Below, in pieces: positions 4,886-26,444 of a stretch of 64,000 bases of DNA (position 1 is its first letter; each line of letters begins with the position of its first letter). Under the pieces are notes generated by a model. That model was given only the letters and a program-made list of their open reading frames with translations, did not search any database and was not told the origin of the DNA. The DNA is from Longibacter salinarum (GTDB taxonomy: Bacteria; Bacteroidota; Rhodothermia; Rhodothermales; Salinibacteraceae), in assembly GCF_002554795.1 (NCBI RefSeq), contig NZ_PDEQ01000009.1:62001-126000 (forward strand), read 5' to 3'. The translations under genes were made by a program, and so were the position numbers.

Positions 4886-4930
4886 AAGCCCCTGAACGCC
4901 GGAGACGGCGGGTTCAGGGGCTTTATTATT
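4886..4930 (+). terminator. rho-independent terminator after tRNA-Ile2
   Basis: A 12-base stem, AAGCCCCTGAAC (4886-4897) with GTTCAGGGGCTT (4912-4923), encloses a GC-rich loop and is followed by TTATTATTTT. It lies 22 bases after the tRNA, inside the island side of attL, so the element brings its own terminator for the tRNA. Confidence 0.85.
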
Positions 4931-7860: not shown

Positions 7861-7897
7861 AACACACTTTCACGGTGGAGCAGCATAACATTATAAT

Positions 7898-8032
7898 TAT
7901 CCGGAAGGCTTCGGGATAGCAAAAACTATCCGGACTAAATCGGTCCTCAGCGACGCTGATGCGACATTAGCGCAATGAGTGCTATCCAGAAGGCTTATGG
8001 AATTACGCACACTATCTAGACAATGTCCAGAA
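7898..8032. repeat. iteron-like cluster of TATCC(G/A)GA motifs
   Basis: Five related short motifs occur within ~135 bases: TATCCGGA (7898), CTATCCGGA (7926), CTATCCAGA (7982), CTATCTAGA (8012) and TGTCCAGA (8024). The first and third continue as AAGGCTT, giving a longer repeat. They lie between the 3' end of the integrase gene and the start of the small membrane protein, a place where integrase arm sites, excisionase sites or repressor operators are often found. Confidence 0.5.
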
Positions 8033-8088
8033 GCGAGTTTTCCTCTGTGTCTCGACATAAATAGTGGCTGGCCGCATCCTCCTGCCCA

Positions 8089-9234: not shown

Positions 9235-9317
9235 GGTTAAATGCTTGAGAGGGCTATGAGTGTGGAGTCATGTGATTGAGCTACACCACACGCTAAGCTG
9301 ATTTCGGCAATTAAAAA

Positions 9318-9352
9318 GAAAACCCCTTCCGTAGTCGTCGGAGGGGTTTTGT
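9318..9352. terminator. bidirectional terminator hairpin
   Basis: AAAACCCCTTCCG pairs with CGGAGGGGTTTT (stem 9319-9331 with 9339-9350). A-rich sequence lies on the left and T-rich on the right, so it could stop transcription from either direction. It sits upstream of both the leftward integrase and the rightward Rep gene, insulating the two modules. Confidence 0.75.
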
Positions 9353-9643
9353 CTTGCAGAACGCCCATTGAAGCCACTCAGGGCGTCTCACATCGAAAGA
9401 TGGTCCTACCGTCCCAGCGCCATCCCACTTGGGACGGTCCCCTAACTGTAACGGACCCGTCTCTTTTGGCAGAGGAAGGGGCGGATCAAATTGTTCGGAG
9501 AATATCCCCGAGGTTGTCTAACGAGCGAAGAACGCTCAACCCTTGCCCACATCGGGCCTTGCCGGTCATGGCAGCCAGAGCGCTGCATGCGTGTGCGCGG
9601 AGTCACGCTTTGATGTCCCGGTATCCGCTGACATACCCTCCCA
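9353..9643. other. Rep upstream region with inverted repeat
   Basis: No convincing gene; a 103-codon plus frame (9349-9660) has no motif and overlaps the Rep start. The stretch contains an inverted repeat, ACCGTCCCA (9408-9416) facing TGGGACGGT (9430-9438), related to the palindromes at 12079 and 12129. This could be a replication origin or regulatory site for the Rep gene downstream. Confidence 0.4.
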
Positions 9644-10747: not shown

Positions 10748-10817
10748 TATAGAACAACTCCGGGGGAGGCGGTGCGTCCCAGCAGGAGCGACAACGCTCG
10801 GCGCGTACGAGCGCGAC

Positions 10818-12158
10818 ATGCGAATGGAGGAAGGCCGGATTGTATCCGTGCACCCCGACAAAGGGTGGTGCAAGGTGCAAACCGCCAGTGGCCGCCAGCT
10901 CCAGAAGGTGCGCCTGACCTCTCCCGGCATGTCCAACGCCGGGCGTGGGTTCCGCATCACGCCCCGATCGAATACGATGTGTGTGGTCCTGTACGACGCA
11001 CGCTCGCCCTACGATCGGGCCTTCCTGGTTGGCACGACGCCCGACGAGGCTCCGGACGAATCGATGGGCGAGTGGGGTGCCCCGGGCGACCTAGAGTACA
11101 CGATGGAGCACGGCGGCCACTGGCTCGGCACGCAGACGGGCCTGACCGATTTCATGGCCTCCCCGTGGGCACGCCTGACCCTGCTCCCATCCACGCAGAC
11201 CGCGCGGCTTACAACCCGCAACCATGAGCGCCTCTACTCCCCATTCAGCCACGATCGGCTGATCCAAGACGACGAAGCGGAGGTCAGCTTTCGGGAGCTG
11301 ATGGTGAACAGCCGTTTCCTCTACCGAGACGGCGATGCGGCGCCCAACATCATCTGGACGCTCGGGAATCAGACGGACTCGGACAAAGTGAGCCCGCTAA
11401 ACCCGAAGTCGAAGCACCTTTCTTTTTTTGTTGTCGAGAACCGCGATCCGGACGACGGAAGCACGGTCACGCACCGCTTCCAAGAAGGGATCGGCGCCGC
11501 GGACGGCCGGATGCGCTACACCTTGATGCAGGACCTGGAGCAGTCGATCGGCTTCGAGGAAGTGGTGGGCTGGGATCAGGGCATCATCCACAGCTTCGCC
11601 ATCGAGACGGAGGACGTCACCCACGAACGCCGCTGGGGCTTCTTCACCGAGGGCACGCTCGCGCACGAGGAGCACATCGAGATGGGCGAGGATGTCACCT
11701 TCGACCACAAGCTCGGCAACCGCGAAGGCGTCGTCTCAGAGACGCTCTGGAAACGCGCAGGCGTCACCGTCACCGAACGCATTGGCGATTTCGAGAAGAC
11801 GGCCTACGAGCTGGATGTGGCGCAGGACGACGAGTCCAAGATGACGGCCCGCATCGAGCCCACCGGCCGGATCGAGATCACGAACCCGACCTGGACGATC
11901 GACATCGAGAAAGGCTCGAAGGCCACGATCACGAATGGCGACACGACCTTCCTGATCGACGGCGAGGACATCTTCGTCGGCGGCCCGGACGGCTCGGAAA
12001 TGATGGCCTTGGGCGACACGCTGAAGAAGCTCCTTGACCGGACGCTTCCGACTTGTGGAGAAGTGGCCCTGCGAAAAACCGTCCCAGCTGGGATGAACGA
12101 CCACGACGATTTTCCGAATCGCACAAATCCGACCGTCCCAGCTGGGATGGTTTACTGA
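10818..12158 (+). CDS. phage spike / baseplate OB-fold-like protein
   Basis: A 446-residue protein. Residues ~1-75 (EEGRIVSVHPDKGWCKVQ ... YDRAFLVGTTP) follow the OB-fold of phage baseplate-V/gp45-type spikes. The middle is unassigned. The end (GRIEITNPTWTIDIEKGSKA ... FVGGPDGSEMMALGDTLKKLL) resembles a spike's beta-prism followed by the common xLGDxLxxLL tail. The start at 10818 is chosen because it begins the OB-like sequence; the frame is open back into the Rep gene. The last 30 codons carry two copies of a TCCCAGCTGGGA palindrome, so the true C-terminus may have been altered by repeat insertion. No capsid, tail tube or packaging gene is near, so this is a fragment or a satellite-type particle component. 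Confidence 0.6.
   Translation: MRMEEGRIVSVHPDKGWCKVQTASGRQLQKVRLTSPGMSNAGRGFRITPRSNTMCVVLYDARSPYDRAFLVGTTPDEAPDESMGEWGAPGDLEYTMEHGGHWLGTQTGLTDFMASPWARLTLLPSTQTARLTTRNHERLYSPFSHDRLIQDDEAEVSFRELMVNSRFLYRDGDAAPNIIWTLGNQTDSDKVSPLNPKSKHLSFFVVENRDPDDGSTVTHRFQEGIGAADGRMRYTLMQDLEQSIGFEEVVGWDQGIIHSFAIETEDVTHERRWGFFTEGTLAHEEHIEMGEDVTFDHKLGNREGVVSETLWKRAGVTVTERIGDFEKTAYELDVAQDDESKMTARIEPTGRIEITNPTWTIDIEKGSKATITNGDTTFLIDGEDIFVGGPDGSEMMALGDTLKKLLDRTLPTCGEVALRKTVPAGMNDHDDFPNRTNPTVPAGMVY
12075..12146. repeat. two copies of a TCCCAGCTGGGA-centred palindrome
   Basis: CCGTCCCAGCTGGGATG occurs at about 12079-12096 and again at about 12129-12146. The core, TCCCAGCTGGGA, is a perfect 12-base palindrome. A related split version (ACCGTCCCA...TGGGACGGT) is at 9408-9438, and AGCTGGGACGG occurs at 15650-15660. 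The two copies lie inside the 3' end of the spike-like gene and read as the same peptide (VPAGM) in frame. Confidence 0.75.
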
Positions 12159-12294
12159 ACAACGAATGACGGGCACCGGGAAAACCCGCAAAAATCCGAC
12201 GGAAGGGGGCACCATAGGCATGAACGGAGCCGTGCTGACCGAATCCTCAGCGCGGCTCCACCCTGTTCTCTGACATCTTGAAACCCCTTCCTCT

Positions 12295-12825
12295 ATGCCA
12301 TTCCCTAACTGGCTACCCCCATCCCTCTGGCTTCGTGCCCACCGCCTTCGCCAGACCTACAACCTATCCGGTGACTCGACCATCGAAGACGTCGTCCGGG
12401 CGATCGGTCGTATGTCCACACGCGACATGAAGTCCTGCCTGAAGATCTTCACCTCCTTGCCGTACAAGCAGAGGCAGAGGATCCTATCCGACGGACACCG
12501 TCACGTCGTCGGACGGGCGGTTGCGACGCGGCTGGCGCGGCTGTACCACGGACGCACCTGCACCGAAGAGCAGGCCGCAGCCTTCCTTGCGATGCTCACG
12601 GAGGGCATGTCTCTGCCCGGCACCGATCTGGATCTTCCCCAAGAGCTTCGGGACGCCGTCCCGGCCGTCCTCGTGTACAAGGGCCGCACCCCGTATATCG
12701 CCCTTCTGGATGGCGAAGGGTCGGTCCTCGACGTGCTTCCCTTCACACTGAAAGGCCTCCCTGAAAAGCACCATCGCCGCCTGGAGCGGCGCCTCCCCAT
12801 CAACTTAGCATCCATGGGGCTGTAA
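12295..12825 (+). CDS. hypothetical protein in Rep/spike module
   Basis: A 176-residue basic, soluble protein with no recognised motif. It has an N-terminal helical stretch (LWLRAHRLRQTYNL), a repeat-like helical core and a short beta segment (LRDAVPAVLVYKGRTPYIAL, then LDGEGSVLDVLPF). It is on the same strand as the Rep and spike genes and is closed by a terminator at 12865, so it probably ends the same transcription unit. Function unknown. Confidence 0.6.
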   Translation: MPFPNWLPPSLWLRAHRLRQTYNLSGDSTIEDVVRAIGRMSTRDMKSCLKIFTSLPYKQRQRILSDGHRHVVGRAVATRLARLYHGRTCTEEQAAAFLAMLTEGMSLPGTDLDLPQELRDAVPAVLVYKGRTPYIALLDGEGSVLDVLPFTLKGLPEKHHRRLERRLPINLASMGL

Positions 12826-12864
12826 GCACCGTTCCTACTAACACTACAGTTCCTGAAAACAGAA

Positions 12865-12900
12865 AAGGTGGCCCTGCGCAATGGCGGGGCCACCTTCTTG
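12865..12900 (+). terminator. rho-independent terminator
   Basis: AAGGTGGCCC (12865-12874) pairs with GGGCCACCTT (12887-12896), followed by CTTGTTGT. It lies 40 bases after the hypothetical gene and closes the Rep/spike/hypothetical unit. Confidence 0.85.
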
Positions 12901-13270
12901 TTGTCGATCACAGAATACTCCAGTTGACGAGACCGGAGGAGAAGACTGTGCCTTCGTGTTTCTGCAATCAAGTTCAAAACACAACACAAGGGCTTACAAG
13001 CACACCAACCATTTGATCCCCCTTACCTGATTCCCGCATCCCCCCTGCCTCGTACCCCCGGAAGCATTCACCCGGGGAAGGAAGCCATTGACCGCTCCTT
13101 ACAGCGGGAAGCGCCCGAGCCTCATCATCCATGGCCTAAAGAGACCGGGACAGCTTCCACACGCTGTACGATCATTCGAACGCGCATATGTTCATGATAT
13201 GTGTAATACTGCGTGTGCCTTATCTTGCACCGCACGTACTCGTTCACCGGCCACAGTGACGGCTCCCGAT
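12901..13270. other. spacer before exonuclease gene
   Basis: The plus frame of the exonuclease is open from 13088, but residues before ~13256 do not look like the family. No other gene is seen. The start of the exonuclease is therefore uncertain within this stretch. Confidence 0.35.
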
Positions 13271-13927
13271 ATGGTTTGTGTAGCCTGGGATATCGAAACC
13301 TGCCCGCAGCCCCTCTCTGCCCTCACGGATACCCAGAAAGAACGCTACGAGACGGAGATGAGGCAGAGCGAGCGAAAGAAGCCCGACCTGGACCACGAGG
13401 ACCGCTGCCGCCTGGTCCGGAGCACGCACCCGCTGCTGGGCTGGATCTGCTGCATCAGCGCCGTGAGCGGGACGCTGGACGGCCAGGTAAACGATCCCGT
13501 GAGCTGGACCGCGGCAACAGAAGACGACGAGGTGGACCTGTTCCTGGACTTCTGGAGCACCGTTGCCGGCTTCTCCCGCGGCGTCACGTGGGTGACGTTC
13601 AACGGCAAGCGTTTCGACGTCCCCTTCCTCCTAGCCCGCTCGGCCCGACGCGATGTATCACCCACGCGGCGCGACCTGACGGACACGTATCCCTACAACA
13701 ACCGGCCGCACACGGACCTGTGCAACCTGTGGCCGGCCTCGTACAGCCTGGCTGATCTCTGCGAGCATCTTTACGTCGACAGCCCGAAAGACGGCTTTGA
13801 CGGAAGCAAGGTAGCCGATGCGGTCGAGGAGGGCCGGATCGAACAGATGCAGGAGTACTGCGAACGGGACGTAGTGGCCACGCTTAAGTGCGCACAGGCG
13901 GCACGAGCGGTACTTAGGCTTGACTAA
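13271..13927 (+). CDS. 3'-5' exonuclease, PolB-exonuclease-like (DnaQ fold)
   Basis: A 218-residue DEDDy-type exonuclease resembling the predicted PolB-like exonuclease family (DNA_pol_B_exo2). The motifs are ExoI WDIET (Asp7, Glu9), ExoII TFNGKRFDVPFL (Asp in FD) and ExoIII YCERDVVAT (Tyr and Asp four residues apart). These acidic residues bind the two catalytic metals. ATG 13271 places ExoI near the N-terminus; upstream GTG 13256 or ATG 13199 is possible. Phages and mobile elements use such enzymes for DNA processing or recombination. It is separated from the Rep unit by a terminator, so it probably has its own promoter. Confidence 0.8.
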   Translation: MVCVAWDIETCPQPLSALTDTQKERYETEMRQSERKKPDLDHEDRCRLVRSTHPLLGWICCISAVSGTLDGQVNDPVSWTAATEDDEVDLFLDFWSTVAGFSRGVTWVTFNGKRFDVPFLLARSARRDVSPTRRDLTDTYPYNNRPHTDLCNLWPASYSLADLCEHLYVDSPKDGFDGSKVADAVEEGRIEQMQEYCERDVVATLKCAQAARAVLRLD

Positions 13928-14207
13928 CCTTCGATCACACGTAGGCATGACACCGTCTGACCGAGTGCCATTAAGTCCTTCCGTCACAGAAGCCGACCGG
14001 GAACGTAATGGCCCTAATTACGACAGCTGTGCCGATACACTACCTTAGGCTAATTAATGAACGGAACTGTACGGCCATCAAAGCTCAACACAGTTTACGC
14101 TTGGCGACACATGACGTGCATGTTACCTGGTCTCGTGGGTCGGGAATTTCCCGGACTGCTGCCATGAGCGCACCTAGTCGCCCCCACATCTTACGCTGAC
14201 AATACAC

Positions 14208-14750
14208 CTACTCTGTTATGTCGACCACCGCATCCATCTCTTTATCAACCGCCGAGCTAACATCAAGCACATAGCGTCCTATCTTCATGCGAACCGTTTC
14301 AGCATCAACGATCTTCTTTACTGTTTCCGGTTTGAGCATGATTGCATTTTGTTCTCCAACTCCCGGACCCCGCGTCTCTGTACCAGCTTGTACAACCTTT
14401 CCTTCATGTCTTTCACCGTCCACCAAAAAATAGGCTTTCTCCACATTTAGAAGTGCCCATGTACTTGATCTTGTCGAAAGGACAATCGACCTGGTGCCAT
14501 CGTTGTGGAAGATAGATACTGAGGCATTACGTATGACAGGTTTTGCCTGCTCCTCTACGACAACATCAACGGGCTTCGTCTGAACGATCCGTTCCCCGGT
14601 AAACTCATCCGTTTTATTTTGTAGAAACTCTACCTCTGGTGGGTCTGGAGGAATTACCGATACCTGGGCCAGAGACGGCGTTTCAGCAATTAGAAGGATC
14701 AGAAAGAACATTATGGCGATACGAGGCGCCATGTAGATCGGTACGCGCAT
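14208..14750 (-). CDS. secreted hypothetical protein
   Basis: A 180-residue protein with a clear Sec signal peptide (basic start, MAPRIAIMFFLILLIAE, cleavage after SLAQ near residue 29). The mature part is beta-rich (VRNASVSIFHNDGTRSIVLS-like pattern, then YFLVDGERHEGK) and ends in an acidic segment. No family recognised. It is on the minus strand, apparently alone. Island cargo of unknown role, probably periplasmic. Confidence 0.65.
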   Translation of the reverse strand: MRVPIYMAPRIAIMFFLILLIAETPSLAQVSVIPPDPPEVEFLQNKTDEFTGERIVQTKPVDVVVEEQAKPVIRNASVSIFHNDGTRSIVLSTRSSTWALLNVEKAYFLVDGERHEGKVVQAGTETRGPGVGEQNAIMLKPETVKKIVDAETVRMKIGRYVLDVSSAVDKEMDAVVDITE

Positions 14751-14851
14751 TTGAAAACGACGGTTATTAACGAAATAAAGTGTGCAAGACCGAGGCCCTG
14801 TTACACGTGGATTTCCCTACTCACGTATTAAGGTTGTAAAGCCTGTTCCCC

Positions 14852-15445
14852 TTACTCATTCGTTGTGGTATTCGCGTCGACTGAACGAAGCCGAACCGCG
14901 GTTCCCACGCCAACCATAAGAAGCATCGATCGACCACTGGAGATCTCGCTGTATTTGAAATCAATCGCGATGATCGCATTTGCGCCCAAATCGTGGGCTT
15001 CTGACTGCATTTCCTCTAAAACGGTCTCCTTCGCTTCGGAGAAGGCATTTTGGATCGTCTCACTTCGCCCACCTACGATATCGCGAGCAACAGTAAAAAC
15101 ATCTTTGAATAGGTTCAGACCGATGGCAACCTCTGCAGTCACTATTCCGAGCCGACGCTCAACTTGACGGTCAGGGAGCACGGCCTCGGTAGTAACCATA
15201 AGGGAGGGGGTACTGACAGTCTCAATGTTCCGGTGACTGTCTTGAAGCCGCTCCTCGCGACGAGATTGATGACGCTGTACTGCGTCCGGAACGACCGTCT
15301 CAAGAGGTCGGAACCGTCTCGTGGATCCGTCTGCCGGCCGACAGGGGGTTTTCCGACCGAGTTTTAACTGACCAAGGAGGTTGACGAGTTCATCAACGGT
15401 ATAAGGGCCTTCGACAGAAGACCGAGGCTTAACTTCGTATTTCAT
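14852..15445 (-). CDS. GYF_2-like domain fused to YbjQ/UPF0145 domain
   Basis: A 197-residue two-domain protein. Residues 1-50 (YEVKPRSSVEGPYTVDELVN ... CRPADGS) match the GYF_2-type N-terminal motif found in many Bacteroidota proteins. Residues ~80-190 match the YbjQ/UPF0145 pattern (TTEAVLPDRQVERRLGIVTA; GLNLFKDVFTVARDIVGGRS; EEMQSEAHDLGANAIIAIDF). YbjQ-like proteins form pentameric rings and have been linked to metal binding, but their function is unclear. No signal peptide is present. The fusion is unusual and its island location suggests accessory function. Confidence 0.8.
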   Translation of the reverse strand: MKYEVKPRSSVEGPYTVDELVNLLGQLKLGRKTPCRPADGSTRRFRPLETVVPDAVQRHQSRREERLQDSHRNIETVSTPSLMVTTEAVLPDRQVERRLGIVTAEVAIGLNLFKDVFTVARDIVGGRSETIQNAFSEAKETVLEEMQSEAHDLGANAIIAIDFKYSEISSGRSMLLMVGVGTAVRLRSVDANTTTNE

Positions 15446-15870
15446 AGACGTTGTTGATTAGCACAGGGACCCGACTATAAATACAGTGTTTTAAGTGAAA
15501 ATGTCTAACGACTGAGGGAAGCGGTGCCGGACCAGCTCTGTAATAGACTTCCACTTCTCGGATCTCTATTGAGGCAAAGCGGGATCCTTTAGGGCGCAAA
15601 AGGAGGAAGAGGCTCGGTGGTTCGGCTTGAGGCCTCGCTCGATCAACTAAGCTGGGACGGCTCAGTGATTCGGCCTTAACGTCAGCAAACGGCGCTTACC
15701 TGACCGGAAAACACAAATTTGATCCGGTTCAAAAATCTGCTCCTGATTTCTTATCCATGGGGTAACTCAATCCCGAACGGTGGTGCCAGCTAAGCAGAAC
15801 GGCATCACGGAGCTGTCGGCTTAATCAAGAAGCATCACGCTGACGCTCTTAGCTCAAGATCCTCTTGAGC
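15446..15870. other. intergenic with palindrome half-site
   Basis: No gene is recognised between the divergent YbjQ-type and HTH genes. AGCTGGGACGG at 15650-15660 is the reverse complement of one half of the palindromes at 12079 and 12129. TTCGGCTTGAGGCC and a nearby TTCGGCCTT are further short similar words. Divergent promoters presumably lie here but none is clear. Confidence 0.4.
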
Positions 15871-16170
15871 ATGAACCATCACGAACCCGTGGAGCCTCAT
15901 ACGCAGCGTGAGAGCACGCTGCCCGTACTGCCCGAAGCGATGGAATCTGCAATCGACAGGGCCGTAGAGGAGCGCATTCAGCACGTAGCGAGCCAGTCGC
16001 CCTTGCCGCCCCTGTGGACGGTAAAGGAGGTAGGCAAGTACCTGAACGTCTCCAAGCGAACCGTCGAGCACTTGATCGCCGATGGCGAGATTGCCCCGAT
16101 CTGGATCCGTGGCCAGCGCCGCTTCGATCGCGAGACGATCAAGGCCTACGCACACGCCCAGGTCGGGTAG
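15871..16170 (+). CDS. excisionase-like helix-turn-helix protein 1
   Basis: A 99-residue protein with a C-terminal MerR/HTH_17-type winged helix: LWTVKEVGKYLNVSKRTVEH (residues ~48-67), then LIADGEIAPIWIRGQRRF and RETIKAYAHAQ. This fold is typical of phage and ICE excisionases (recombination directionality factors). The N-terminal half is acidic and probably flexible. ATG 15871 is preferred over the TTG two codons earlier. It is followed after 45 bases by a second gene of the same fold. Its likely role is control of island excision or recombinase expression. Confidence 0.8.
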   Translation: MNHHEPVEPHTQRESTLPVLPEAMESAIDRAVEERIQHVASQSPLPPLWTVKEVGKYLNVSKRTVEHLIADGEIAPIWIRGQRRFDRETIKAYAHAQVG

Positions 16171-16215
16171 CCAACCCCTACCATCGCCAAATCCCTTCCA
16201 TTCACTACCCTCACC

Positions 16216-16548
16216 ATGACCCGCGTCACCAAAAGCGGCGGGCGGCATGATGCCGTCCGCCGTCCTCATTCATCAGCGTCCGATCAGGAAATCTCGAAAG
16301 ACGCCTTCAGCAAGGTCGTTGACCAGAAGGTGCAGGAGACACTGCAGCGCTACCCGTTCCTCACCGACGATAGCCTGTGGACCGCCGAGCAGCTCGCCAA
16401 CTTCCTCCAGGTTTCGATGCGCACGCTGTCGAAGCTCGTGGCATCCGGCGACCTGAAGCCCGTGCAGACACGCCCGCGGCGCCTCTTCAAGAAGAGCCAG
16501 ATCGACGCTTTCCTTCGGGCCAGAGTAGATCCGTCGGGCCTTCGTTAA
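16216..16548 (+). CDS. excisionase-like helix-turn-helix protein 2
   Basis: A 110-residue paralogue of the preceding protein, with the same C-terminal pattern: LWTAEQLANFLQVSMRTLSK, then LVASGDLKPVQTRPRRLFKK and SQIDAFLRARV. The helix-turn-helix and basic wing are complete. Two tandem Xis-like genes in one island that also has two recombinases suggests one directionality factor for each, or a heterodimeric regulator. That pairing is inference. The gene converges with the lipoprotein gene ending at 16569. Confidence 0.8.
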   Translation: MTRVTKSGGRHDAVRRPHSSASDQEISKDAFSKVVDQKVQETLQRYPFLTDDSLWTAEQLANFLQVSMRTLSKLVASGDLKPVQTRPRRLFKKSQIDAFLRARVDPSGLR

Positions 16549-16568
16549 GGGGATGCGCGTGCTGCCCT

Positions 16569-17639
16569 CTACCTCAGCCTGGATCCGCAGGGAGCAATGT
16601 ACGGTGTGATTTCGCCCTTCCTCCCCCTGTCGTTCGTGATTGGGTGGTAACTCTCGCGCTGCGTATTATACATCCATATGTCGTCGTAGCCGTCCGGGCC
16701 AACGGGCTTCAGTATGGCCAGGGCCGTGGAGGATCCACTGGCGCCGTGTTCGGCAGAAACAGACTGCACGTCGCTAATGTCACCGTCCAGGTTCGCCAGT
16801 TGCCTCCAGCTCTTGTTAGACAGGTGGGCACCATACACGGGAAACGTTGATGTGGACGTTCGGTCGCCAACGAGCAGTTGCGTCCCATCAGGCGTCCAAC
16901 CATGCACTCCGACGGGGTTATCGGGGCTGGATTCCGTTTTCGACGTCGGTAGAGATATTTGTTCGCCGGTCTTCGTGTTGAACACCCGTGGTTCTCGAGA
17001 CCGGGGATCCTGGTATGCAAGCTTCGTCCCATCGCACGACCAGAATAGCCGGTACGGAGGAAGTCTGGGCTCCGCGAGCGTTCGTACCGATCGTGAGGAC
17101 TGGTTGAGCAGGATCACGGAGTACGATGTCTTCGCGACAATGGCCCCTTCGCGCTTGCGGTCAATCCGTACGACGGCAGCAAACGTCGACGTGTCCGTTG
17201 GCGACCAGGCAACCCGCTCAATCCAGGGATGGTCGCGCTCTATGTCAGGCCCCTCCGGACGCGCCCAGAAAAGGTCGAGGTATTCTACGGAGAGGTCTTG
17301 AAGATCCATGACGGCAATGCGACGATCCCCTTGCTGACTGCCATCGATACGGCTCGGCGAACCCTTCGTATCGATCAAATAGAGGAGGCGGCGCCCGTTC
17401 GGCGACCAGCTCAGTGAAAACTCGGGCACGCTGTTGTTCGTCAACCGCCAGACACGGTTCGAATCCGGTTCGAGGACGAAGATATCCTGTTCATCGGAAC
17501 TGGACGTAGCACCTACGTCGGGGTCATTCTTGAATGCGATAGCTCCCTCGGGAATATCCGGAGGGGCGGACGTTTGCCCGCAGGCCTGAAGCGGCAAAAC
17601 GAGGATTAAAAAGAGTAGACACCGCACGTAAATATGCAT
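16569..17639 (-). CDS. lipoprotein with WD40-like (PD40/TolB) beta-propeller
   Basis: A 356-residue lipoprotein: signal peptide with lipobox LPLQAC, predicted acylation at Cys20. The mature part has at least four PD40-type blades, each with a W-[ST]-P/C-[DN]-G core (SWSPNGRRLLYLI, WSPTDTSTFAAVV, WSCDGTKLAYQDP, GWTPDGTQLLVGD), as in TolB-like propellers. Such proteins are usually anchored at the outer membrane facing the periplasm and bind partners through the propeller. It lies 69 bases downstream of another lipoprotein gene on the same strand, so the pair may be co-transcribed. Specific function unknown. Confidence 0.75.
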   Translation of the reverse strand: MHIYVRCLLFLILVLPLQACGQTSAPPDIPEGAIAFKNDPDVGATSSSDEQDIFVLEPDSNRVWRLTNNSVPEFSLSWSPNGRRLLYLIDTKGSPSRIDGSQQGDRRIAVMDLQDLSVEYLDLFWARPEGPDIERDHPWIERVAWSPTDTSTFAAVVRIDRKREGAIVAKTSYSVILLNQSSRSVRTLAEPRLPPYRLFWSCDGTKLAYQDPRSREPRVFNTKTGEQISLPTSKTESSPDNPVGVHGWTPDGTQLLVGDRTSTSTFPVYGAHLSNKSWRQLANLDGDISDVQSVSAEHGASGSSTALAILKPVGPDGYDDIWMYNTQRESYHPITNDRGRKGEITPYIAPCGSRLR

Positions 17640-17708
17640 ACGTTGATGGATTCGCCAGGATATCGAGCTTACAGTCGCTCTCAGGGAATGCTTTTACCGC
17701 ATCACTTT

Positions 17709-18437
17709 TTAATTAAGGTGCTTTAGACTGTCAACTAGACTGTACGGTTTGGCTGGATGGATGTACAGTTGCCGCGCGGTGCCCGTCGAGTCGATACCTA
17801 CCATGAAGTCCGTCCAAACGTGCGGCTCGTACAGGTAATTGCGATGGTAGGCAATTTCCCCGGTCACGTAGATCGGGTAGGGCAACACGTCCCGCTGGTC
17901 GTCCGACGGATAGAAGATGGGTCCGAACCTGACGGTGACCGCAGAGTCCCGCTTAGCGTAGTGTGTATAGTCGACGAGGCCGATCGAGCTTTTCTGGTCG
18001 AGGCATTTTAGCTGTTGTCGGTGGTCGGCCGCCACGTTCCGGGTCGAGTCGATGCTCTGCTCCAACCGACCCAAAACCTCCTCGCTCCGCTCATAGGCAC
18101 GATCGATCACATCAGATGAGGGACCCACCAGACACCTCTTCAAGTCTTCAGCCGTGGTGTGAGCGCACAGTGCCGGCAAAAAACTGTGAGTGCTAAACGT
18201 GTACCGGGTTTTCTGGGAAACCGTACGCCGGGTGTCTTCCGTCGCCCCATGGTATTCGAGGAACACGTCGATCGTGTCGGAGCGCTCCAGGTAGCGATAG
18301 GTTTCCAGCAGGTAGCGCCACTCTGAGTCGTCGCACGCAGTTTCGTCGATTCGCGAAAGCTGACAGCCGATAAACGTAAAGCACACCCCAAGGCAGATAC
18401 TTCCCCAAATAAATGCTTGTACACGGGTCATCGGCAT
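17709..18437 (-). CDS. hypothetical lipoprotein
   Basis: A 242-residue lipoprotein with lipobox FTFIGC (Cys25). The mature region contains a Cys-bearing helical segment (LPALCAHTTAEDLKRCLVG; QQLKCLDQKSS) and a beta-rich C-terminus. No family recognised. Located between the second island recombinase and the propeller lipoprotein, all on the minus strand. Confidence 0.65.
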   Translation of the reverse strand: MPMTRVQAFIWGSICLGVCFTFIGCQLSRIDETACDDSEWRYLLETYRYLERSDTIDVFLEYHGATEDTRRTVSQKTRYTFSTHSFLPALCAHTTAEDLKRCLVGPSSDVIDRAYERSEEVLGRLEQSIDSTRNVAADHRQQLKCLDQKSSIGLVDYTHYAKRDSAVTVRFGPIFYPSDDQRDVLPYPIYVTGEIAYHRNYLYEPHVWTDFMVGIDSTGTARQLYIHPAKPYSLVDSLKHLN

Positions 18438-18544
18438 ACCGCCTTATGGAATCAAATAAATGACAACGGGCAGACCGGCCCACGGCGCCTCTTAAAAGAG
18501 TCATATCGACGCCTTTCTCGGAGCCCGCTAAACTTGCAGTAACG

Positions 18545-19501
18545 CTAGATTCGGATGCGCTCGATCTCCTCTTGCTGCACGTTCTGGCTCCGGCGATCAT
18601 AGAGCTTCGTGGTCGTCGCAGACGCGTGCCCTGCGATATGCTGGGCGGTTTCAAGCTGCCCACCATTCTCAAGGTACGTCGTGATGCCGGTGCCACGAAA
18701 CGTATGGCAGCAGACCTGGTCGGGATCGAACCCGGCGTCCAGGGCCCTGCGCTTCACCATCTGCAGGATGTTGTCAGACTGCAGTCGACGTCCGGTCAGT
18801 CGACCGGTGCGCCCCTTCAACGACTGAAAGAGAGGTGCATCGCGCTCTCCGTGTAAACCGGCGGCCGCAAGGTAGGCGTCCAGATACTCGCCGGCCTTGT
18901 GATGGACGGGGATGTCCCGCCGCTTTCCTCCTTTCTCCTGCAAGTGAAGCATCCAGCGATGACCGGCCTGGAAGTAGTGCCCGACGTCCAGACGGGCCAC
19001 CGCAGACACGCGGGCGAACGTGTAGACCATCACCCCGATGATGGCCCGATCGCGCAGCTGCCCTACGTCTGAGGCGTCCTCCACGACCGAGTCGATCAGC
19101 TCCCGCGTCTCGCCCGCCGTAAGCACCGGCGTCTTCCCCGACTCCACCACCAGCTTCGGAGGGCGCACGGGAGCAGCCGGGTTGTCTTTGATGACCTGCC
19201 CGGTCACCAGCCAGTCGAAGAGGCGGCTGATCGCCGACAGGTGCTGCTTGACGGTTGCCGCAGAGCGATCGTCCTCCTCGACGTACGCCGCGACGTGGAC
19301 GGGCTCGATGGCCTTGAGCGTGAGGCCCCGAGCGGATGCCCAATCAAAGAATTGGCGCACGGCCCGGCCGTAGGCCTTCCTCGTGTTCTTGTTGCGGATC
19401 TCCGCGGTAAAGAACTCGATCACCCGACGACCGGCCTGCTCACTGGCATCTGCAAGCACAGGAGGCAACGTCGAGCGGAGCTGTGGCACGAGGTCGGACA
19501 T
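18545..19501 (-). CDS. tyrosine recombinase 2 (Xer-like)
   Basis: A 318-residue recombinase of a different branch from the 8089-9234 integrase. It has a SAM-like N-terminal domain (residues ~25-105) and a catalytic domain with Arg164 (TFARVSA, a variant of the usual TGLRxSE), Lys190, His266 and Arg269 (CHTFRGTGIT), His292 (IAGHAS) and Tyr301 (KLYDRR). ATG 19501 is chosen because the frame upstream lacks domain character. The FARVSA/HTFRGTGIT form recurs in recombinases of plasmids and transposon-like elements. A deleted copy of this gene lies outside the island at 26191-26444. It is not an IntI: no IntI-specific insert is seen. Confidence 0.9.
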   Translation of the reverse strand: MSDLVPQLRSTLPPVLADASEQAGRRVIEFFTAEIRNKNTRKAYGRAVRQFFDWASARGLTLKAIEPVHVAAYVEEDDRSAATVKQHLSAISRLFDWLVTGQVIKDNPAAPVRPPKLVVESGKTPVLTAGETRELIDSVVEDASDVGQLRDRAIIGVMVYTFARVSAVARLDVGHYFQAGHRWMLHLQEKGGKRRDIPVHHKAGEYLDAYLAAAGLHGERDAPLFQSLKGRTGRLTGRRLQSDNILQMVKRRALDAGFDPDQVCCHTFRGTGITTYLENGGQLETAQHIAGHASATTTKLYDRRSQNVQQEEIERIRI

Positions 19502-19658
19502 AGCGGCGTTTTTTAACTTGGGAGGAAGACATTTCCCAGCAGGGGCCCGACCTGTATTCTTACGCACAACCACATCGGCCTGATGAGGTGGCAAACCGAT
19601 TTAGGCACGCAGCGCAATATTTCGATCGATCAACCTGCTCACGCGATAAATTCTCAGT

Positions 19659-20546
19659 CTAAAAGTTAAAGCCCAAGCCGAGAAAGCCTGCAGGAGCAAC
19701 AGTGTCCGGTTTAAACACGATTCGCCCAACGTCTACTTCGTTCTCACCAGTTAAACGTGCGTTCAAGGCCAATCGGGCATCGACATGAAGATATCGGTTG
19801 AGACTCAATAGATGGCCCACTCCCACCGACACGAAGAGGGACTCCCATTCTCCCCTAGCAGTAGTACTCTCATATCCGACACTGTTTATGGCGTATTCAA
19901 AGCCAGTGGTGGCGTAAAAGCCCTCCAACTGGCCAGTAGGAAAATAATTACCCGTCAGCCGATACGCTAAATCAATCTCACCGTCTTGAAAGCCATCTCG
20001 CAAAAAGACATTGGGAATCTGCAAACTGTATATTTCCGCGACAGCCCGAAACCGGCTATGGCCTACCCATAATTCGCCTCCGTAGCCTCCGAGGGCAACA
20101 GGCAAACTGTTTGCAGCAACGCCCCCCGAAATCATCCGTGAAGTAAATGCACTGGCCCGCCGTTCTTTGTTTCGTTCATATATGATTGCATACCCTCTGA
20201 GAATCGGTACTCTCCCGCCTGGAAGCGACTGATAACCCCCAATCAGAGCATTATAGATGAAGCCCGGTTCTTGATGCTCACTTCGTTCCTGAGTGGGAAT
20301 GATGGCGTCAGCTCCCATGGCGCGGGCACGCTCTCTCATGCTCTTCAGTAGGTCGGGGAGCGATTGTCCGACCGAACCGCGGGACTCCAGCATACTAATC
20401 ACTTCGTACGGCTCTTGTGGCGGCTCGCTCAGTATTTCCACCGATTCGGACGGAGCGTACCGTTTTGATTCGTCGATGCGAACAGCGTCTGTCGTGGTAC
20501 ATGCTGGCAACAAAAGGACAACGACGAGAAGAAGCTTAGCATGCAT
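19659..20546 (-). CDS. lipoprotein with C-terminal beta-barrel-like domain
   Basis: A 295-residue protein; ATG 20546 gives a proper signal peptide with lipobox LLLPAC (Cys16). Residues ~30-130 form a small domain (EPYEVISMLESRGS ... MGADAIIPTQERSE) of the kind seen in YbjQ-like or Rcs-type lipoproteins. The last ~170 residues alternate hydrophobic and polar residues and end in LGLGFNF with a terminal Phe, typical of an outer-membrane beta-barrel. The lipoprotein plus barrel combination is unusual. It is oriented opposite to the cassette genes that follow. Confidence 0.65.
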   Translation of the reverse strand: MHAKLLLVVVLLLPACTTTDAVRIDESKRYAPSESVEILSEPPQEPYEVISMLESRGSVGQSLPDLLKSMRERARAMGADAIIPTQERSEHQEPGFIYNALIGGYQSLPGGRVPILRGYAIIYERNKERRASAFTSRMISGGVAANSLPVALGGYGGELWVGHSRFRAVAEIYSLQIPNVFLRDGFQDGEIDLAYRLTGNYFPTGQLEGFYATTGFEYAINSVGYESTTARGEWESLFVSVGVGHLLSLNRYLHVDARLALNARLTGENEVDVGRIVFKPDTVAPAGFLGLGFNF

Positions 20547-20615
20547 AATCCCGTGGGCGGTATTGCGACATACGTGGACTCGACAGAGCCGAAGCCACGT
20601 ACCACTAATGCCCAA

Positions 20616-21051
20616 ACACCTGAAAGGCCACGCGTCGCCCAGCTCTATCTCAGAGTATGTATCAAGGTATCACTGTCCTTAATACAAATGACCGAGTCAC
20701 CCTACCACCTACGGCATGACAGAATTGAGTCTTAGGTACGCTTAGGTCGCTGGTGTTGGCATCGGATAACTGATTTTATCCGCCACGACTGGTGGGCCCA
20801 TTCATCAGCGCATGACTCCGAAACCGGCCTCTAACTTAAGGTGATCCATGACATCGCAGTATTGCGGAATCTCTTGTCAGTGTCCCAGATGTGCTTTGTT
20901 CTTATTGACTTCGACGGAATCGTTCGGCATATTACATGAAGAGGATTCACCATTCTATGCGAACTCGTTCTGAAGTAGATATCTCATACAGAGCACAGCC
21001 GTGAGCAAGCACTGCTGTTCGAGCTACCTTTAATTACACCTTCTTGCTGCG
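20616..21051. other. upstream border of cassette array (possible attC)
   Basis: No gene seen. Within it, CTCTAAC (20829-20835) and GTTCGAG (21017-21023) could be the outer boxes of a long (195-base) attC. GCCGTGA at 20998 sits 19 bases before the second box, as GCCGGTGA does in the clearer sites downstream. The left half of this site is less convincing than the right half. Confidence 0.35.
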
Positions 21052-21288
21052 ATGGACATCTCGATTAATGAGCAAGATGCTAAAGATCTATTAGAGGACG
21101 ACTTTCCCCACATAGTCCGAGTGACTGAAGAATCAGATTCAGAGGGTGGCGGGAAAGTCAAGGTGTCTGTGGAAATACGCAATCAGAATATCCGCCTCGA
21201 TGTACGGAAGTGGGATGGTGCTGGCAAGCTGACATCGGCCAACAGCAAAAACATCTCGTTTGGGGAGTTGATCGATGAACTCGGGTAG
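21052..21288 (+). CDS. cassette 1: hypothetical 78-aa protein
   Basis: A small acidic protein: helical N-terminus (INEQDAKDLLEDDFPHIVRV), then strands VKVSVEIRNQ and IRLDVRKW and a C-terminal helix. No family recognised. The start is 35 bases after the inferred crossover at 21017/21018, and its stop is followed at once by an attC-like site (21314-21440). Small unknown proteins are common integron cargo. Confidence 0.65.
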   Translation: MDISINEQDAKDLLEDDFPHIVRVTEESDSEGGGKVKVSVEIRNQNIRLDVRKWDGAGKLTSANSKNISFGELIDELG

Positions 21289-21313
21289 TGTTTTTTCGGG
21301 ACCCAACAACTCA

Positions 21314-21440
21314 GCATAACAACGCCATGCACCCGGAACGTGGGCTGATGCGCGTAGGCTGTTGGTACGCTACCTTGAAAGACAATCACTTCGACTGATC
21401 GCTGGCGTGCCCTCGGCCGGTGATGGCCAAGCCGTTATAT
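21314..21440 (+). other. attC-like site 1 (127 bases)
   Basis: The R'' box GCATAAC (21314-21320) and R' box GTTATAT (21434-21440) are inverted complements at the ends. Inside, CATGCACCCGG faces CCGGTGATGG, allowing the two-part stem (R and L arms) of an attC hairpin. GCCGGTGA at 21416-21423 lies 18 bases before R'. The right end overlaps the longest open frame of the next gene, which argues for a later start of that gene. Confidence 0.75.
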
Positions 21441-21461
21441 AGACTCCCGCGACTTAAACTG

Positions 21462-22250
21462 ATGAGACTGACTGATCTGCCGAAGGATGAGATACTTGAC
21501 CCATCGTGGGTTGCTGACTACCAGACTAAATATGACGCCCTCTGGCAGCAGGTGACCTTTTTGGTTAATCGCATGTACATCAACGGCAAGGTTTCAGAGT
21601 TTCCTATAGACCTGTTCTGCCCACCCCATCGTTCAACATTTCTAAGAGAGGTATTCTTCACCTTCTACCAAGCCGCGCTGATGTGCATTTGGCGCATCGC
21701 TGTTGACACCGGAAGGGATTTTCTGACAATCAGAGGTCTGAAAAATCAGATCGCAGCGAACATCAGGAAGGATGGACCTCACGACCACAGCGAACTCAAA
21801 GAGGCGTTCCTAGACCTAGTGCGCGCCTCAGACTTCGAGCAAGTTGTTGGAGCCGCCGAGGAGAGCGTCAGGGATCTTCGTCACTCTTACCTGGCTCACC
21901 TTAGAACAGCGCGTGTCGATGGAACAGATCCGAGGACATCGGCTCCTCTTCCCGTTGCGCGTCTTGAGAAGCTGACAGAAGCCATCACGCGCCAGATGAC
22001 CGTCTTGGGATTTGGGCTAGAGCGCCCGTACCTGTTGCCAGAGTACAACGACAGAATCCGCCAGCCGGTCGGAAGACGTGGCGAACCTGACATAGATCGG
22101 CTGCTCACCCACGTAGTAGCAGACAGCGAGATCATCTATTGGCCCGAAAAAAGTCCTCAGGGTTGGAAATTCAGACGCCCCGGACTTTCAGAGGAAGAGC
22201 TTAGCTGGTTTAACCACTATAGAGAGAAATTGGGGTTGCCACGAGCATAG
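21462..22250 (+). CDS. cassette 2: AbiU2/HEPN-like protein
   Basis: A 262-residue helical protein resembling AbiU2-type HEPN proteins: FFTFYQAALMCIWRIAVDTG (residues ~65-84), FLTIRGLKNQI, and RHSYLAHL with Arg140 and His146, matching the HEPN R-x4-6-H catalytic motif. HEPN proteins are often RNases acting as toxins or abortive-infection effectors; AbiU2 relatives are also found without partner antitoxins. ATG 21462 is chosen because ATG 21420 lies inside the preceding attC, left of the crossover at 21434/21435. Similarity is by motif only, and the C-terminal ~90 residues are unassigned. Confidence 0.7.
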   Translation: MRLTDLPKDEILDPSWVADYQTKYDALWQQVTFLVNRMYINGKVSEFPIDLFCPPHRSTFLREVFFTFYQAALMCIWRIAVDTGRDFLTIRGLKNQIAANIRKDGPHDHSELKEAFLDLVRASDFEQVVGAAEESVRDLRHSYLAHLRTARVDGTDPRTSAPLPVARLEKLTEAITRQMTVLGFGLERPYLLPEYNDRIRQPVGRRGEPDIDRLLTHVVADSEIIYWPEKSPQGWKFRRPGLSEEELSWFNHYREKLGLPRA

Positions 22251-22258
22251 CCAGGTCC

Positions 22259-22390
22259 GCATAACCCGGTGCTGCACAGGACGATGGGGCAGTAACGTCT
22301 CTTACGGTCGCTCGCAGTTAGGTCGGTCCTCCGATAACATTACACCTCGCCACTCGCCTGTCCATTGCCGGTGATCACCATGCGCTATAC
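22259..22390 (+). other. attC-like site 2 (132 bases)
   Basis: The R'' box GCATAAC (22259-22265) pairs imperfectly with GCTATAC (22384-22390), which has C where a canonical R' has T. The inner arms GGTGCTGCACAGG and CCGGTGATCACC are complementary with a bulge. GCCGGTGA at 22367-22374 is 17 bases before R'. It is degenerate but has the same geometry as its neighbours. Confidence 0.65.
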
Positions 22391-22424
22391 TGTGTCTTAA
22401 TCACTTAATAATACTTTAAACAAG

Positions 22425-23210
22425 ATGAGTAACACATGGCCTAACGACATTCATCAACTCATTTTTATTCCGAACGTTGAAGGGGCTTTCAATGATCTAG
22501 CGGAATTGGCAGAGGATGAGGTTTGGCACTACGTCAATGAAGAGCGACAGGAGGATTCGGAAAAGTCTATGCCTGTGTTGTACAACTATGTTAAGTACAC
22601 TTACAGAAGGCTTGCTGAGGAAGACAAAGTTGTTGTCGCAGATAATGGTGGCTCGATTGTATTCAACACAGGCTTAGTTACTGAAAGCCAAGAGCCTATC
22701 TTTTGCTACTCAGACCAGAACCGCATGCAGGACGTTGATGTGCCTTGGCACTTCCAAGGGTGGATAAGAAAAGGCGACTGGAAGCTGAACGGCTTCTCTA
22801 CGCTTCCGCCAATGGCGCACTATTATGACGATCCGGCTTCTCTAGTGCTTGATACTCGGAAGGAAATCAGAGTCAACGTTGAGCACATCATTCGTGATAA
22901 TAGAGATCGATTTCCTGAGCCTTACGACTCGATGAGCACTTTTCAGCTTCAGACGTTTCTGAAAGGGACAATAGATAACGCAATTGAAAGGGCGAAGCGG
23001 AACTACAAGGCAGCCGTTCCCCAGTACCACCAGGGTAGAATTCAGATCTTGCTGCCTCTCTGCTTGTCAAACCCTAACGCTGCAGACCTAGCTCTGGTAG
23101 TTGAAGACAAAGGTGCTTTCTATCGTGCATCGACTTGCCTTCCTCTGGATTGGGCCTACAACAACGCACGTCAACTGGCACGGCCAGATAGAGACTGGCT
23201 CAAGCCGTGA
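22425..23210 (+). CDS. cassette 3: DUF3825-domain protein
   Basis: A 261-residue soluble protein matching the DUF3825 pattern: VLYNYVKYTYRRLAEEDKVV, then SIVFNTGLVTESQEPIFCY, WHFQGW, a central helical part, and the end LPLCLSNPNAADLALVVE followed by YRASTCLPLDWAYNNARQLA. DUF3825 occurs alone or with OST-HTH/NYN-type RNA-binding modules and lacks a firmly known function. The start lies 41 bases after the crossover at 22384/22385. Base use is visibly more AT-rich than the chromosome flanks, in line with foreign origin. Confidence 0.78.
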   Translation: MSNTWPNDIHQLIFIPNVEGAFNDLAELAEDEVWHYVNEERQEDSEKSMPVLYNYVKYTYRRLAEEDKVVVADNGGSIVFNTGLVTESQEPIFCYSDQNRMQDVDVPWHFQGWIRKGDWKLNGFSTLPPMAHYYDDPASLVLDTRKEIRVNVEHIIRDNRDRFPEPYDSMSTFQLQTFLKGTIDNAIERAKRNYKAAVPQYHQGRIQILLPLCLSNPNAADLALVVEDKGAFYRASTCLPLDWAYNNARQLARPDRDWLKP

Positions 23211-23229
23211 GAAGGTGTAAGTTAAAACC

Positions 23230-23345
23230 ATATAACAAGGCGCTGTACCAGACGGTGTCGGTATGCGCTTTGAAATATATTAGTGTCGCATGTGCTCACG
23301 TCGAGTCGTGGTGTTGCCCCCGCCGGTGAGCGCTACTCGTTATAG
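23230..23345 (+). other. attC-like site 3 (116 bases)
   Basis: The clearest site. ATATAAC (23230-23236) continues as AAGGCGCTGTACC, and its partner is AGCGCTACTCGTTATA. The two ends fold as TATAAC/GTTATA plus GCGCT/AGCGC plus ACC/GGT with one or two extra bases, as in attC bottom-strand hairpins. R' is GTTATAG (23339-23345), and GCCGGTGA at 23322-23329 precedes it by 17 bases. Confidence 0.82.
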
Positions 23346-23369
23346 TGCCCTTCACAGAAAGCCCCCAGC

Positions 23370-23744
23370 ATGACAACAAATCACAACTATTGGCTCGTCG
23401 GCGCGAACTGGAGTGGAGATGACAAATCCGACGCTTTTTACCGTCGGGGCTATTGGGAAGTTGGGTATAGCGACGAACAAAAACCGGCGTTTGCAGCCAA
23501 AAGAGACCAAATGAAGGCCGGTGACCGAGTCGCCGTGAAGGCGATGCGGGGACGTGGCGCCTCAACAATCACGATCAAAGCTCTGGGTGTCGTGAAGGAG
23601 GTTCACGACGGCAAGGTTTACATCGATTGGCTTCTTACGGACCTTAATCGTGAAGTTGAAAGCAAGGGCTGCTTCCAGACAATTCATGGTCCCTATGGTA
23701 CGAAGCGAGAGCCAGAATGGGTGAAGGAAGTATTCCACATCTAA
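23370..23744 (+). CDS. cassette 4: EVE/PUA-like domain protein
   Basis: A 124-residue single-domain protein: NYWLVGANWSGDDKSDAFYR, GYWEVGY, MKAGDRVAVKAMRGRG, ITIKALGVVKEVHDGKVYID, then EPEWVKEVFHI. This matches the EVE/PUA-like domain found at the N-terminus of many McrB-type and other defence NTPases, where it reads modified bases in DNA or RNA. Here it stands alone as a cassette, so any nuclease or NTPase partner must be elsewhere. The start lies 30 bases after the crossover at 23339/23340. Function inferred from domain resemblance. Confidence 0.75.
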   Translation: MTTNHNYWLVGANWSGDDKSDAFYRRGYWEVGYSDEQKPAFAAKRDQMKAGDRVAVKAMRGRGASTITIKALGVVKEVHDGKVYIDWLLTDLNREVESKGCFQTIHGPYGTKREPEWVKEVFHI

Positions 23745-23750
23745 GCAACA

Positions 23751-23872
23751 ATATAAAATAGCTCTACACCTGACGGCATCCGGATACGCTTTGAACTGAC
23801 CGCCATGTCTGGCTTGCTCACCACAAGGCCCCTTACTCACTCCAAGACCACTGACTCAGTGATCTGTTTGGA
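23751..23872 (+). other. attC-like site 4, degenerate (122 bases)
   Basis: Its left part, ATATAAAATAGCTCTACACC then TGACGG and later ACGCTTTGAA, closely parallels site 3 (ATATAACAAGGCGCTGTACC, AGACGG, GCGCTTTGAA), so the two are related by descent. The proposed R' is GTTTGGA (23866-23872), with CAGTGA a few bases before it. The boxes have drifted and the site may no longer recombine. Confidence 0.55.
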
Positions 23873-23911
23873 CATCACGTCTCTGCCACAGCACCTGAAT
23901 GCGTAAAATAG

Positions 23912-23980
23912 GCGTAAGCCTTTGATTTAGATGAAGAAACATCGTCTCTTCATCGGCTTACGCGACGGATTTGGGGGGGG
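23912..23980. other. interrupted inverted repeat and G8 tract beside attR
   Basis: GCGTAAGCC (23912-23920) and GATGAAGA (23930-23937) pair with TCTTCATC (23947-23954) and GGCTTACGC (23955-23963), giving a 17-base interrupted stem. It is followed by eight consecutive G (23973-23980) just before attR. It could be a terminator, a recombinase-accessory structure or a relic of the element's end. Confidence 0.55.
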
Positions 23981-23991
23981 TAAGTGGTCAT

Positions 23992-24035
23992 ACTCATAAT
24001 CGATCGGTCGTGGGTTCAAGTCCCGCCGGGCCCAC
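23992..24035 (+). repeat. attR: 44-base copy of tRNA-Ile2 3' half
   Basis: Identical to 4822-4865 from the anticodon loop to the first base after the acceptor stem. The 5' half of a tRNA is missing, so this is not a functional tRNA gene. It is the original chromosomal 3' end left behind when the island integrated. Confidence 0.92.
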
Positions 24036-24089
24036 TTATATTTGCGCTACGTGCCTTGTTTACAAAACGTAGAACAAACGAGGCAAAAC

Positions 24090-26190: not shown

Positions 26191-26444
26191 TAGCTGGGCA
26201 ACGCCTGAGGCCTCTTCGACGACGGAATCAATCAGCCCTCCTCTCTCACTTGCGGTGAGCCACCGGCGTCTTCTCCGACTCGACCACCAGCTTTGGAGGG
26301 CGGACGAGCGCAGCCGGATTGTCCGTGATGACCTACCCGGTCACCAGCCAGTCGAAGAATTGGCTCGCTGGCCAGCCGCCTCACCGGCATCTGCAAGCAC
26401 GGGAGGCAACGTCGAGCGGAGCTGCGGCACGAGATCGGGGGGCA
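26191..26444 (-). pseudogene. deleted copy of tyrosine recombinase 2
   Basis: The DNA aligns closely with the 5' part of the island recombinase gene. 26191-26360 matches about 19055-19215 (shared words GTCACCAGCCAGTCGAAGA and CACCGGCGTCTTC), and 26375-26438 matches about 19430-19496 (shared GGCATCTGCAAGCAC, GGCAACGTCGAGCGGAG). Roughly 200 bases between these blocks, and all of the catalytic 3' part, are missing. It therefore encodes nothing functional. It records an earlier insertion of a related element next to the present island. Confidence 0.8.

Follow-up and report, generated by a model that had tools for sequence, protein, structure and literature searches.

Candidate single-gene defence cassettes in an integrase-less attC array within a tRNA-Met island of Longibacter salinarum

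Do the small cassettes lined up in this part of the Longibacter salinarum genome form a store of anti-phage genes? The locus was analysed within a 64-kb window (the whole stretch of DNA under study, C9:62001-126000), taken from a genome of 4.4 Mb in 22 contigs. An earlier, sequence-only reading had proposed a mobile store of single defence genes, with AbiU2/HEPN, DUF3825 and EVE-like products. We favour, with a probability of roughly 0.57, the view that these cassettes, in an array lacking an integrase and close to the right-hand end of a tRNA-Met island, are single-gene modules of innate-immunity type. For the cargo class as a whole, defence is the likely role; gene by gene, the cassettes are candidates.

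Organization of the cassette array

Four cassettes occupy positions 21052-23829, three of them separated by attC sites and the fourth carrying an eroded attC (Table 1). The ORFs of cassettes 2, 3 and 4 were recovered where they had been described, all on one strand with attC-like spacers between them, and the single-gene layout holds, each being one ORF between attC sites. No obvious antitoxin ORF was seen alongside these three cassettes. For cassette 2, the start at 21462 is preferred because a GTG start at 21420 falls inside attC1. The cassette 1 protein had no relatives among Pfam- and PADLOC-type profiles or in plasmids. The array has a GC content of 49-52%, below most of the window, and promoter-like matches within it occur at chance level only.

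The only match in the genome above the TIGR02249 cut-off (399.7 bits, cut-off 265) is an IntI near the end of contig C2. It is followed by two attC sites, and the sites of the array are of the same type. A covariance model trained on these two sites and on three sites of the window gave 11 attC matches genome-wide: two on C2, three in the window and six elsewhere. Because this model was trained on the window, a second profile was made from the two C2 sites alone. In the 64-kb window it recovered attC3, the truncated attC4 and half of attC2, while its best match across five control loci had an E value of 1.7. By this independent profile, the cassette nature of the locus exceeds chance. The C2-only profile found no match to attC1 in the window, which makes attC1 the least secure site, its sole support being the model trained on it. 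A crude end-complementarity test, ignoring spacer offsets, was applied to ten attC candidates. It gave p <0.01 for three (w3, C2_1 and L051) and p 0.045 for C2_2; w1, w2, L040, L052, L055 and L013 all stayed short of p 0.05. The low power of this test is perhaps due to the ignored offsets.

A cluster of attC sites without an integron integrase is called a CALIN. Here, several attC sites stand in a row (attC3 and the truncated attC4 independently, attC1 and attC2 by the self-trained model) and no intI adjoins them. A tyrosine recombinase encoded upstream of the array (18545-19594) was considered as the integron integrase and ruled out on its TIGR02249 and TIGR02225 scores. Since this recombinase is XerC/D-like and the IntI is located elsewhere, on C2, the array is integrase-less. 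The proposed mobility therefore stands in part: the cassettes are separated by attC sites, but the array lacks its own integrase, and the cassettes are not all equally mobile-looking because the fourth attC is eroded. The array was probably captured earlier by the integron of this bacterium or of a close relative, and would now be carried without an integrase within the tRNA-Met island.

The right copy of a perfect repeat of the tRNA-Met 3' end lies ~160 bp past the truncated attC4. We interpret the ~19 kb at 4866-24035 as a tRNA-Met island that has the array close to its right-hand end. No empty tRNA-Met site was found; the flanks are unconserved in 20 relatives and three further relative loci. 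An Rfam match to tmRNA at 23961-24037 (E 0.018, below the gathering score) was rejected, as it corresponds to the duplicated tRNA-Met 3' end.

Table 1. Features of the tRNA-Met island and the cassette array (positions in the window).
Feature	Position	Strand	Evidence and remarks
tRNA-Met (CAT), island insertion site	4791-4866	+	ARAGORN
44-bp direct repeat, left copy (tRNA 3' end, attL)	4822-4865	+	100% identical to 23992-24035
Restriction-endonuclease-like and TPR protein near attL	5248-7293	-	PADLOC Aga_REase-TIR, E 4.3e-10, residues 13-157; TPR
Tyrosine recombinase of the island	8089-9234	-	PF00589, E 8.3e-37
XerC/XerD-like tyrosine recombinase	18545-19594	-	TIGR02225 121 bits; TIGR02249 43.7 of 265 bits
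Cassette 1 ORF	21052-21288	+	78 aa, orphan
attC1	21314-21440	+	Covariance model 64.8 bits, site in training set; least certain site
Cassette 2 ORF	21462-22250	+	262 aa, HEPN-like, R140-x5-H146; PF18734 E 0.002
attC2	22259-22390	+	Covariance model 79.4 bits (trained on it); independent profile: left half, E 0.022
Cassette 3 ORF	22425-23210	+	261 aa, DUF3825; PF12873 E 6.5e-74; model pLDDT 90.0
attC3	23230-23345	+	E 5.2e-15, profile independent of the window
Cassette 4 ORF	23370-23744	+	124 aa, stand-alone YTH/EVE-fold protein
attC4, truncated (last third, R' and L', missing)	23753-23829	+	E 2e-7, model positions 3-79 of ~116
44-bp direct repeat, right copy (attR)	23992-24035	+	Perfect repeat of the tRNA-Met 3' end

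Cassette 4 encodes a YTH/EVE-fold protein

The AlphaFold model of the cassette 4 protein (27 sequences, pLDDT 90.8, pTM 0.85) consists of a single domain. Its highest VIA-align scores were obtained with MJECL36 (Z 10.4), PH1033 (10.1), VcaM4I (9.9 over 103 residues) and the Mmi1 YTH domain (9.9), YTH domains in general scoring ~8.5-9.9. All 50 matches listed have Z values of 8.5-10.4, with an rmsd of 2.5-3.4 over 101-111 residues, which identifies the EVE/YTH fold; the best Foldseek E value was 9e-4. Structure prediction, proposed earlier as a check, has confirmed the EVE-like domain, which is invisible to Pfam: none of 28 family members has an EVE/YTH-superfamily match at E<=0.1. No PADLOC family matched the protein. 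Residues W8, W14, W29, W87 and H106 are invariant and are candidates for a modified-base pocket. VcaM4I is an EVE-HNH restriction endonuclease (PDB 6yex), with a base pocket formed by P24, W82 and Y130 according to excerpts of PMC7897488. The two proteins share the fold, whereas cassette 4 has no HNH nuclease domain.

Relatives of cassette 4 were found at 32 genome loci, in one viral and 11 plasmid records, and in none of the phage records. The subfamily is sporadic: among 345 genomes of the phylum, two others have it, and in one of these the match is weak and lies in an 808-aa frame. In Paracoccus (L012), the homologue forms the N-terminal part of an AAA protein whose gene precedes mcrC, and at L038, L066, L067 and L069 it lies within ORFs of 755-813 aa (judged by ORF length). 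Cassette 4 is thus homologous to the N-terminal domain of an mcrC-adjacent AAA protein, as in EVE-McrB/McrC type IV restriction, but neither the AAA GTPase McrB nor the nuclease McrC is among the ORFs of the array, which places it outside the McrBC systems.

The neighbours were counted at 26 stand-alone loci of the 32 (103 proteins), leaving out the fused homologues (L066, L067, L069) and the broken or cut ones (L065, L068, L070); L046 was omitted from alignments A4 and A5 only. At E<=1e-8, the best 25 of 153 matching PADLOC families include QatA, GajA, PD-T7-1 and DpdH, and also type II methyltransferase and restriction endonuclease, IIG, Cas7/Cas4 and AriA (two members). This family count does not convert into a number of defence-matching proteins, because one protein can match many families. 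A recheck of ten neighbour proteins located QatA (L046), a IIG enzyme (L060, a Rhodothermaceae genome) and a type II methyltransferase (L057), and seven of the ten had no such match. In a small control, not taxon-matched, 46 genes drawn from three ordinary stretches matched five PADLOC families (GlgB, DndA, SspA and two PglZ), which we read as probable housekeeping homologues.

Some homologues also appear in cassettes. Among 36 loci searched, an attC-model match lies directly behind the homologue in Methylobacter (L051, E 0.0066) and another one ORF beyond it on a Shewanella plasmid (L013, E 0.0021). A box-pattern search behind the ORFs of L051, L055, L040 and L052 gave p values of 0.075-0.13, up to 0.225, and 0.065 for L055. 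As these values are weak, cassette placements other than L013 and L051 were made by eye.

Being one short domain with no effector attached, the cassette 4 protein could also be a housekeeping-type EVE protein, or an accessory or regulator of restriction (for example in self/non-self protection), and not an effector. In the part available, PMC7641849 reports EVE proteins that evolve slowly and belong to housekeeping operons, and others that stand alone as partners of type I restriction systems. It ties fast-evolving EVE domains to defence, and the word "integron" does not occur in the paper. Such a sporadic subfamily is unlike a conserved operon member, however, and in several lineages it is cassette-borne or located beside defence genes. 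We consider this explanation possible, though rather unlikely.

In the defence reading, cassette 4 would act as a YTH/EVE reader, flipping a modified base of a nucleic acid and binding it. With no effector domain of its own, the protein would probably tag phage DNA or RNA that is modified, or keep it sequestered, or else pair with a nuclease encoded elsewhere. The earlier proposal that each product acts alone fits the single-gene cassettes, but it is weaker for this protein, which lacks a nuclease domain. Of the three, cassette 4 has the best case for defence, because its homologues are McrB-like sensor domains and adjoin defence genes, among them QatA and type II/IIG restriction.

Cassette 3 encodes a DUF3825 protein

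The whole of profile PF12873 (1-238) is matched by cassette 3 at 249 bits, against a cut-off of 27, which bears out the DUF3825 core noticed before. Conserved residues of the family include H154, N193 and R249. The family is rare: it is present in six of 296 genomes of the phylum at E<=0.001, the host included, five of them over the cut-off. It was also found in eight phage records and in 44 plasmid records, of which 35 are Campylobacter; viral contigs with the family are numerous, two sets giving 18 and 16 loci with some overlap.

At L098, the gene has AbiTii (E 2.4e-45) on one side and a GmrSD/HNH protein on the other. In Streptomyces anulatus its neighbours are a DEAD/DEAH helicase gene and cas genes of type I-E, in Geobacillus an Abi_C (AbiJ-like) protein is two genes away, and in Lactococcus hsdR lies at ~5 kb. 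In prophages it follows lysin or holin genes, at lysis-end positions, and on a 3.1-kb plasmid it is the lone cargo. PADLOC names among 67 neighbours at nine DUF3825 loci were AbiTii, one cas cluster, RtcR-type, mad3 and mad8. The context survey against PADLOC thus gave defence neighbours for both the EVE and DUF3825 families, but about half of the nine inspected plasmid and genome loci of DUF3825 (e.g., L097, L101 and L105) have no obvious ones. No attC-model matches were found in sets of 6 and 16 DUF3825 loci. Cassette 3 itself matched one PADLOC family, Cas10b, at E 0.06.

An AlphaFold-type model of DUF3825 (21 sequences, pTM 0.84) gave nothing at E<=0.001 with Foldseek or against a viral fold library. 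The 50 VIA-align matches listed are, by title, all RelE/ParE/YafQ/YoeB/HigB-type, CDI or colicin-type toxins or Cami1. They cover residues ~145-250 with Z values of 4.1-6.1, which the tool's own note calls noise. The predicted order in this region, strand-helix-helix-four strands-helix, resembles the RelE topology given in excerpts of PMC11980606, a topology of the RelE/ParE (BECR) group that includes the CARF-RelE protein Cami1. That paper does not name DUF3825, nor was the name found in the literature searched. With hhalign, DUF3825 gave 0.54% against 25 ParE sequences (30 loci, five with short flanks dropped) and 20 shuffles gave 0.05-0.56%. As the Z values lie in the noise and the hhalign value within the shuffles, the RelE likeness is kept as a hypothesis. 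DUF3825 also differs from the RelE/ParE group in having no antitoxin.

Viral homologues contain further modules: a cold-shock domain in L071 (E 4e-11) and a repeated OB-like sequence in L120, seen by eye. Because some relatives have a cold-shock (OB) domain and the C-terminal half is RelE-like, cassette 3 would most likely be an RNA-directed toxin that halts growth on infection. The defence reading of DUF3825 is graded as moderate, on account of its AbiTii/GmrSD, type I-E CRISPR and Abi_C neighbours, the prophage lysis-end positions, the cold-shock fusion and the weak RelE-type match. A more speculative proposal, which we hold to be fairly unlikely, is that DUF3825 is an undescribed family of RNases with several domains and a RelE (BECR) fold, in some cases including cold-shock modules for RNA binding. 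Needing no partner antitoxin, they would provide single-gene immunity and would have spread on cassettes and prophages, on very small plasmids and in defence islands. The stand-alone EVE family would then be a matching single-gene sensor of modified bases, exchanged via integrons.

Cassette 2 encodes a HEPN-like protein

The motif RHSYLAH, already noticed in the sequence-only reading, is encoded at 21879-21899. It agrees with the R-x4-6-H pattern of HEPN proteins, as quoted from PMC3710099. The protein covers most of the HEPN_AbiU2 profile (PF18734) at ~18 bits (17.9-18.0), below the curated cut-off of 26.8. Neither tblastn against plasmids and phages nor scans of genomes and viral contigs yielded a reliable relative, and 244 genomes of the class returned just the protein itself and one marginal match (36 residues, E 8e-4). 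Comparing it with the DUF5677 protein encoded in the Shewanella array gave nothing, and no PADLOC family matched. The supposed AbiU2 link therefore keeps its profile match but lacks the score and a confirmed homologue, and cassette 2 is not filed as AbiU2; a HEPN-like RNase is our best guess. The available text of PMC3710099 already lists AbiU2 and an integron-cassette HEPN family (PDB 3jrt), which shares the motif pattern and the cassette location; 3jrt was missing from the phmmer matches of cassette 2. Its most likely mechanism would be that of a HEPN-type RNase which needs no metal and brings about abortive infection. This is the weakest of the defence readings, because no reliable relative was found.

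HEPN proteins of integrons have also been proposed, in the same excerpts, to act in stress dormancy. All the cassettes could be modules for stress or maintenance, such as growth-arrest RNases and solitary toxin-like genes, retained because toxin cassettes stabilise arrays, with phage defence at most a by-product. In the same genome, a ParE toxin (C1:146911-147174) is located near an attC (C1:148157), and other attC-linked places contain DUF433/DUF5615-like and Doc-like ORFs, identified by eye. This explanation appears unlikely, given that cassettes 2-4 have no obvious antitoxin beside them and that the homologues of cassettes 3 and 4 adjoin restriction, CRISPR and Abi genes.

Integrons as stores of defence genes

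The defence-linked cargo proposed at the outset is upheld for two of the three families, DUF3825 and EVE, by their defence-type neighbourhoods, but cassette 2 has no confirmed homologue. No cassette protein had a convincing PADLOC model match; nuclease activity, triggers and an anti-phage effect are what we infer for them. A random cassette sample with no shared role, its defence look being a coincidence of loose motifs, would suit an array of just four ORFs with a weak HEPN match and the ~10% of anti-phage cassettes in Vibrio cholerae (16 of 179, in the accessible part of PMC12409362), by which three out of four would be unusual, but it is improbable given the solid cassette 4 fold and DUF3825 membership and the non-random look of the EVE-family contexts.

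Integrons as anti-phage stores have already been published: the accessible part of PMC12409362 also cites work on mobile integrons, and that of PMC12444791 cites three integron anti-phage studies. As far as the portions available show, the cassettes of sedentary and mobile integrons (Darracq 2025, Kieffer 2025, Getz 2025) are likewise small single-gene defence cassettes between attC sites, and the present array is an ordinary array of this kind. It differs from those in belonging to the Rhodothermales, in being integrase-less within a tRNA island and in its gene families, and its anti-phage role is a predicted one. In the literature searched, "integron" and "EVE domain" occurred together in a review only, and "integron" and "Rhodothermota" did not occur together. 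The idea of the integron as a defence store is extended to the Rhodothermales, with a cassette block riding in a tRNA island without its integrase. Its single-gene candidates are missing from the 2023 PADLOC models and are testable.

Two of the cargo families, DUF3825 and the stand-alone EVE proteins, are hardly studied. DUF3825 now has a predicted fold and a hypothesis of nuclease activity, and its possible nature as a multidomain RelE-fold RNase is the freshest lead. Near attL, at the opposite end of the island from the array, the restriction-endonuclease-like protein with TPR repeats is possibly the product of a further defence gene.

Island ends and recombinase gene

The 19-kb island lies between two identical 44-bp copies of the 3' end of tRNA-Met (4822-4865 and 23992-24035). 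In the relative G182, a similar second copy of 45 bp, matching the window tRNA-Met at 87%, lies ~1.5 kb from that genome's own tRNA-Met (locus L132). The XerC/D-like recombinase gene has a second, partial copy in the window, where regions 26261-26438 and 19124-19497 are 88-90% identical over 105 and 67 nt. The gene for the protein adjoining the left island end is a candidate additional defence gene.

Features at the left island end and outside the window
Feature	Locus	Position	Remark
REase-like + TPR protein	window	5248-7293	lies by the island's left boundary; PADLOC match to Aga_REase-TIR, E 4e-10
attC match with neighbouring ORF	L028	109-912	start of host contig C8
attC match with neighbouring ORF	L031	418-949	start of host contig C6
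643-aa protein	L120 (viral contig)	3903-5834	OB/cold-shock-like repeats preceding DUF3825 (by eye)

Other attC-linked loci

Both contig-start attC matches begin with GCATAAAGGTACGG. Each comes after an opposite-strand ORF which, by eye, resembles part of an IS110-type transposase; this is perhaps an insertion element that targets attC and also breaks the assembly. Toxin-antitoxin-like ORFs are present at three further attC-linked host-genome loci (L027, L029 and L030), among them ParE, found by search, and DUF433/DUF5615-like and Doc-like ORFs, recognized by eye.
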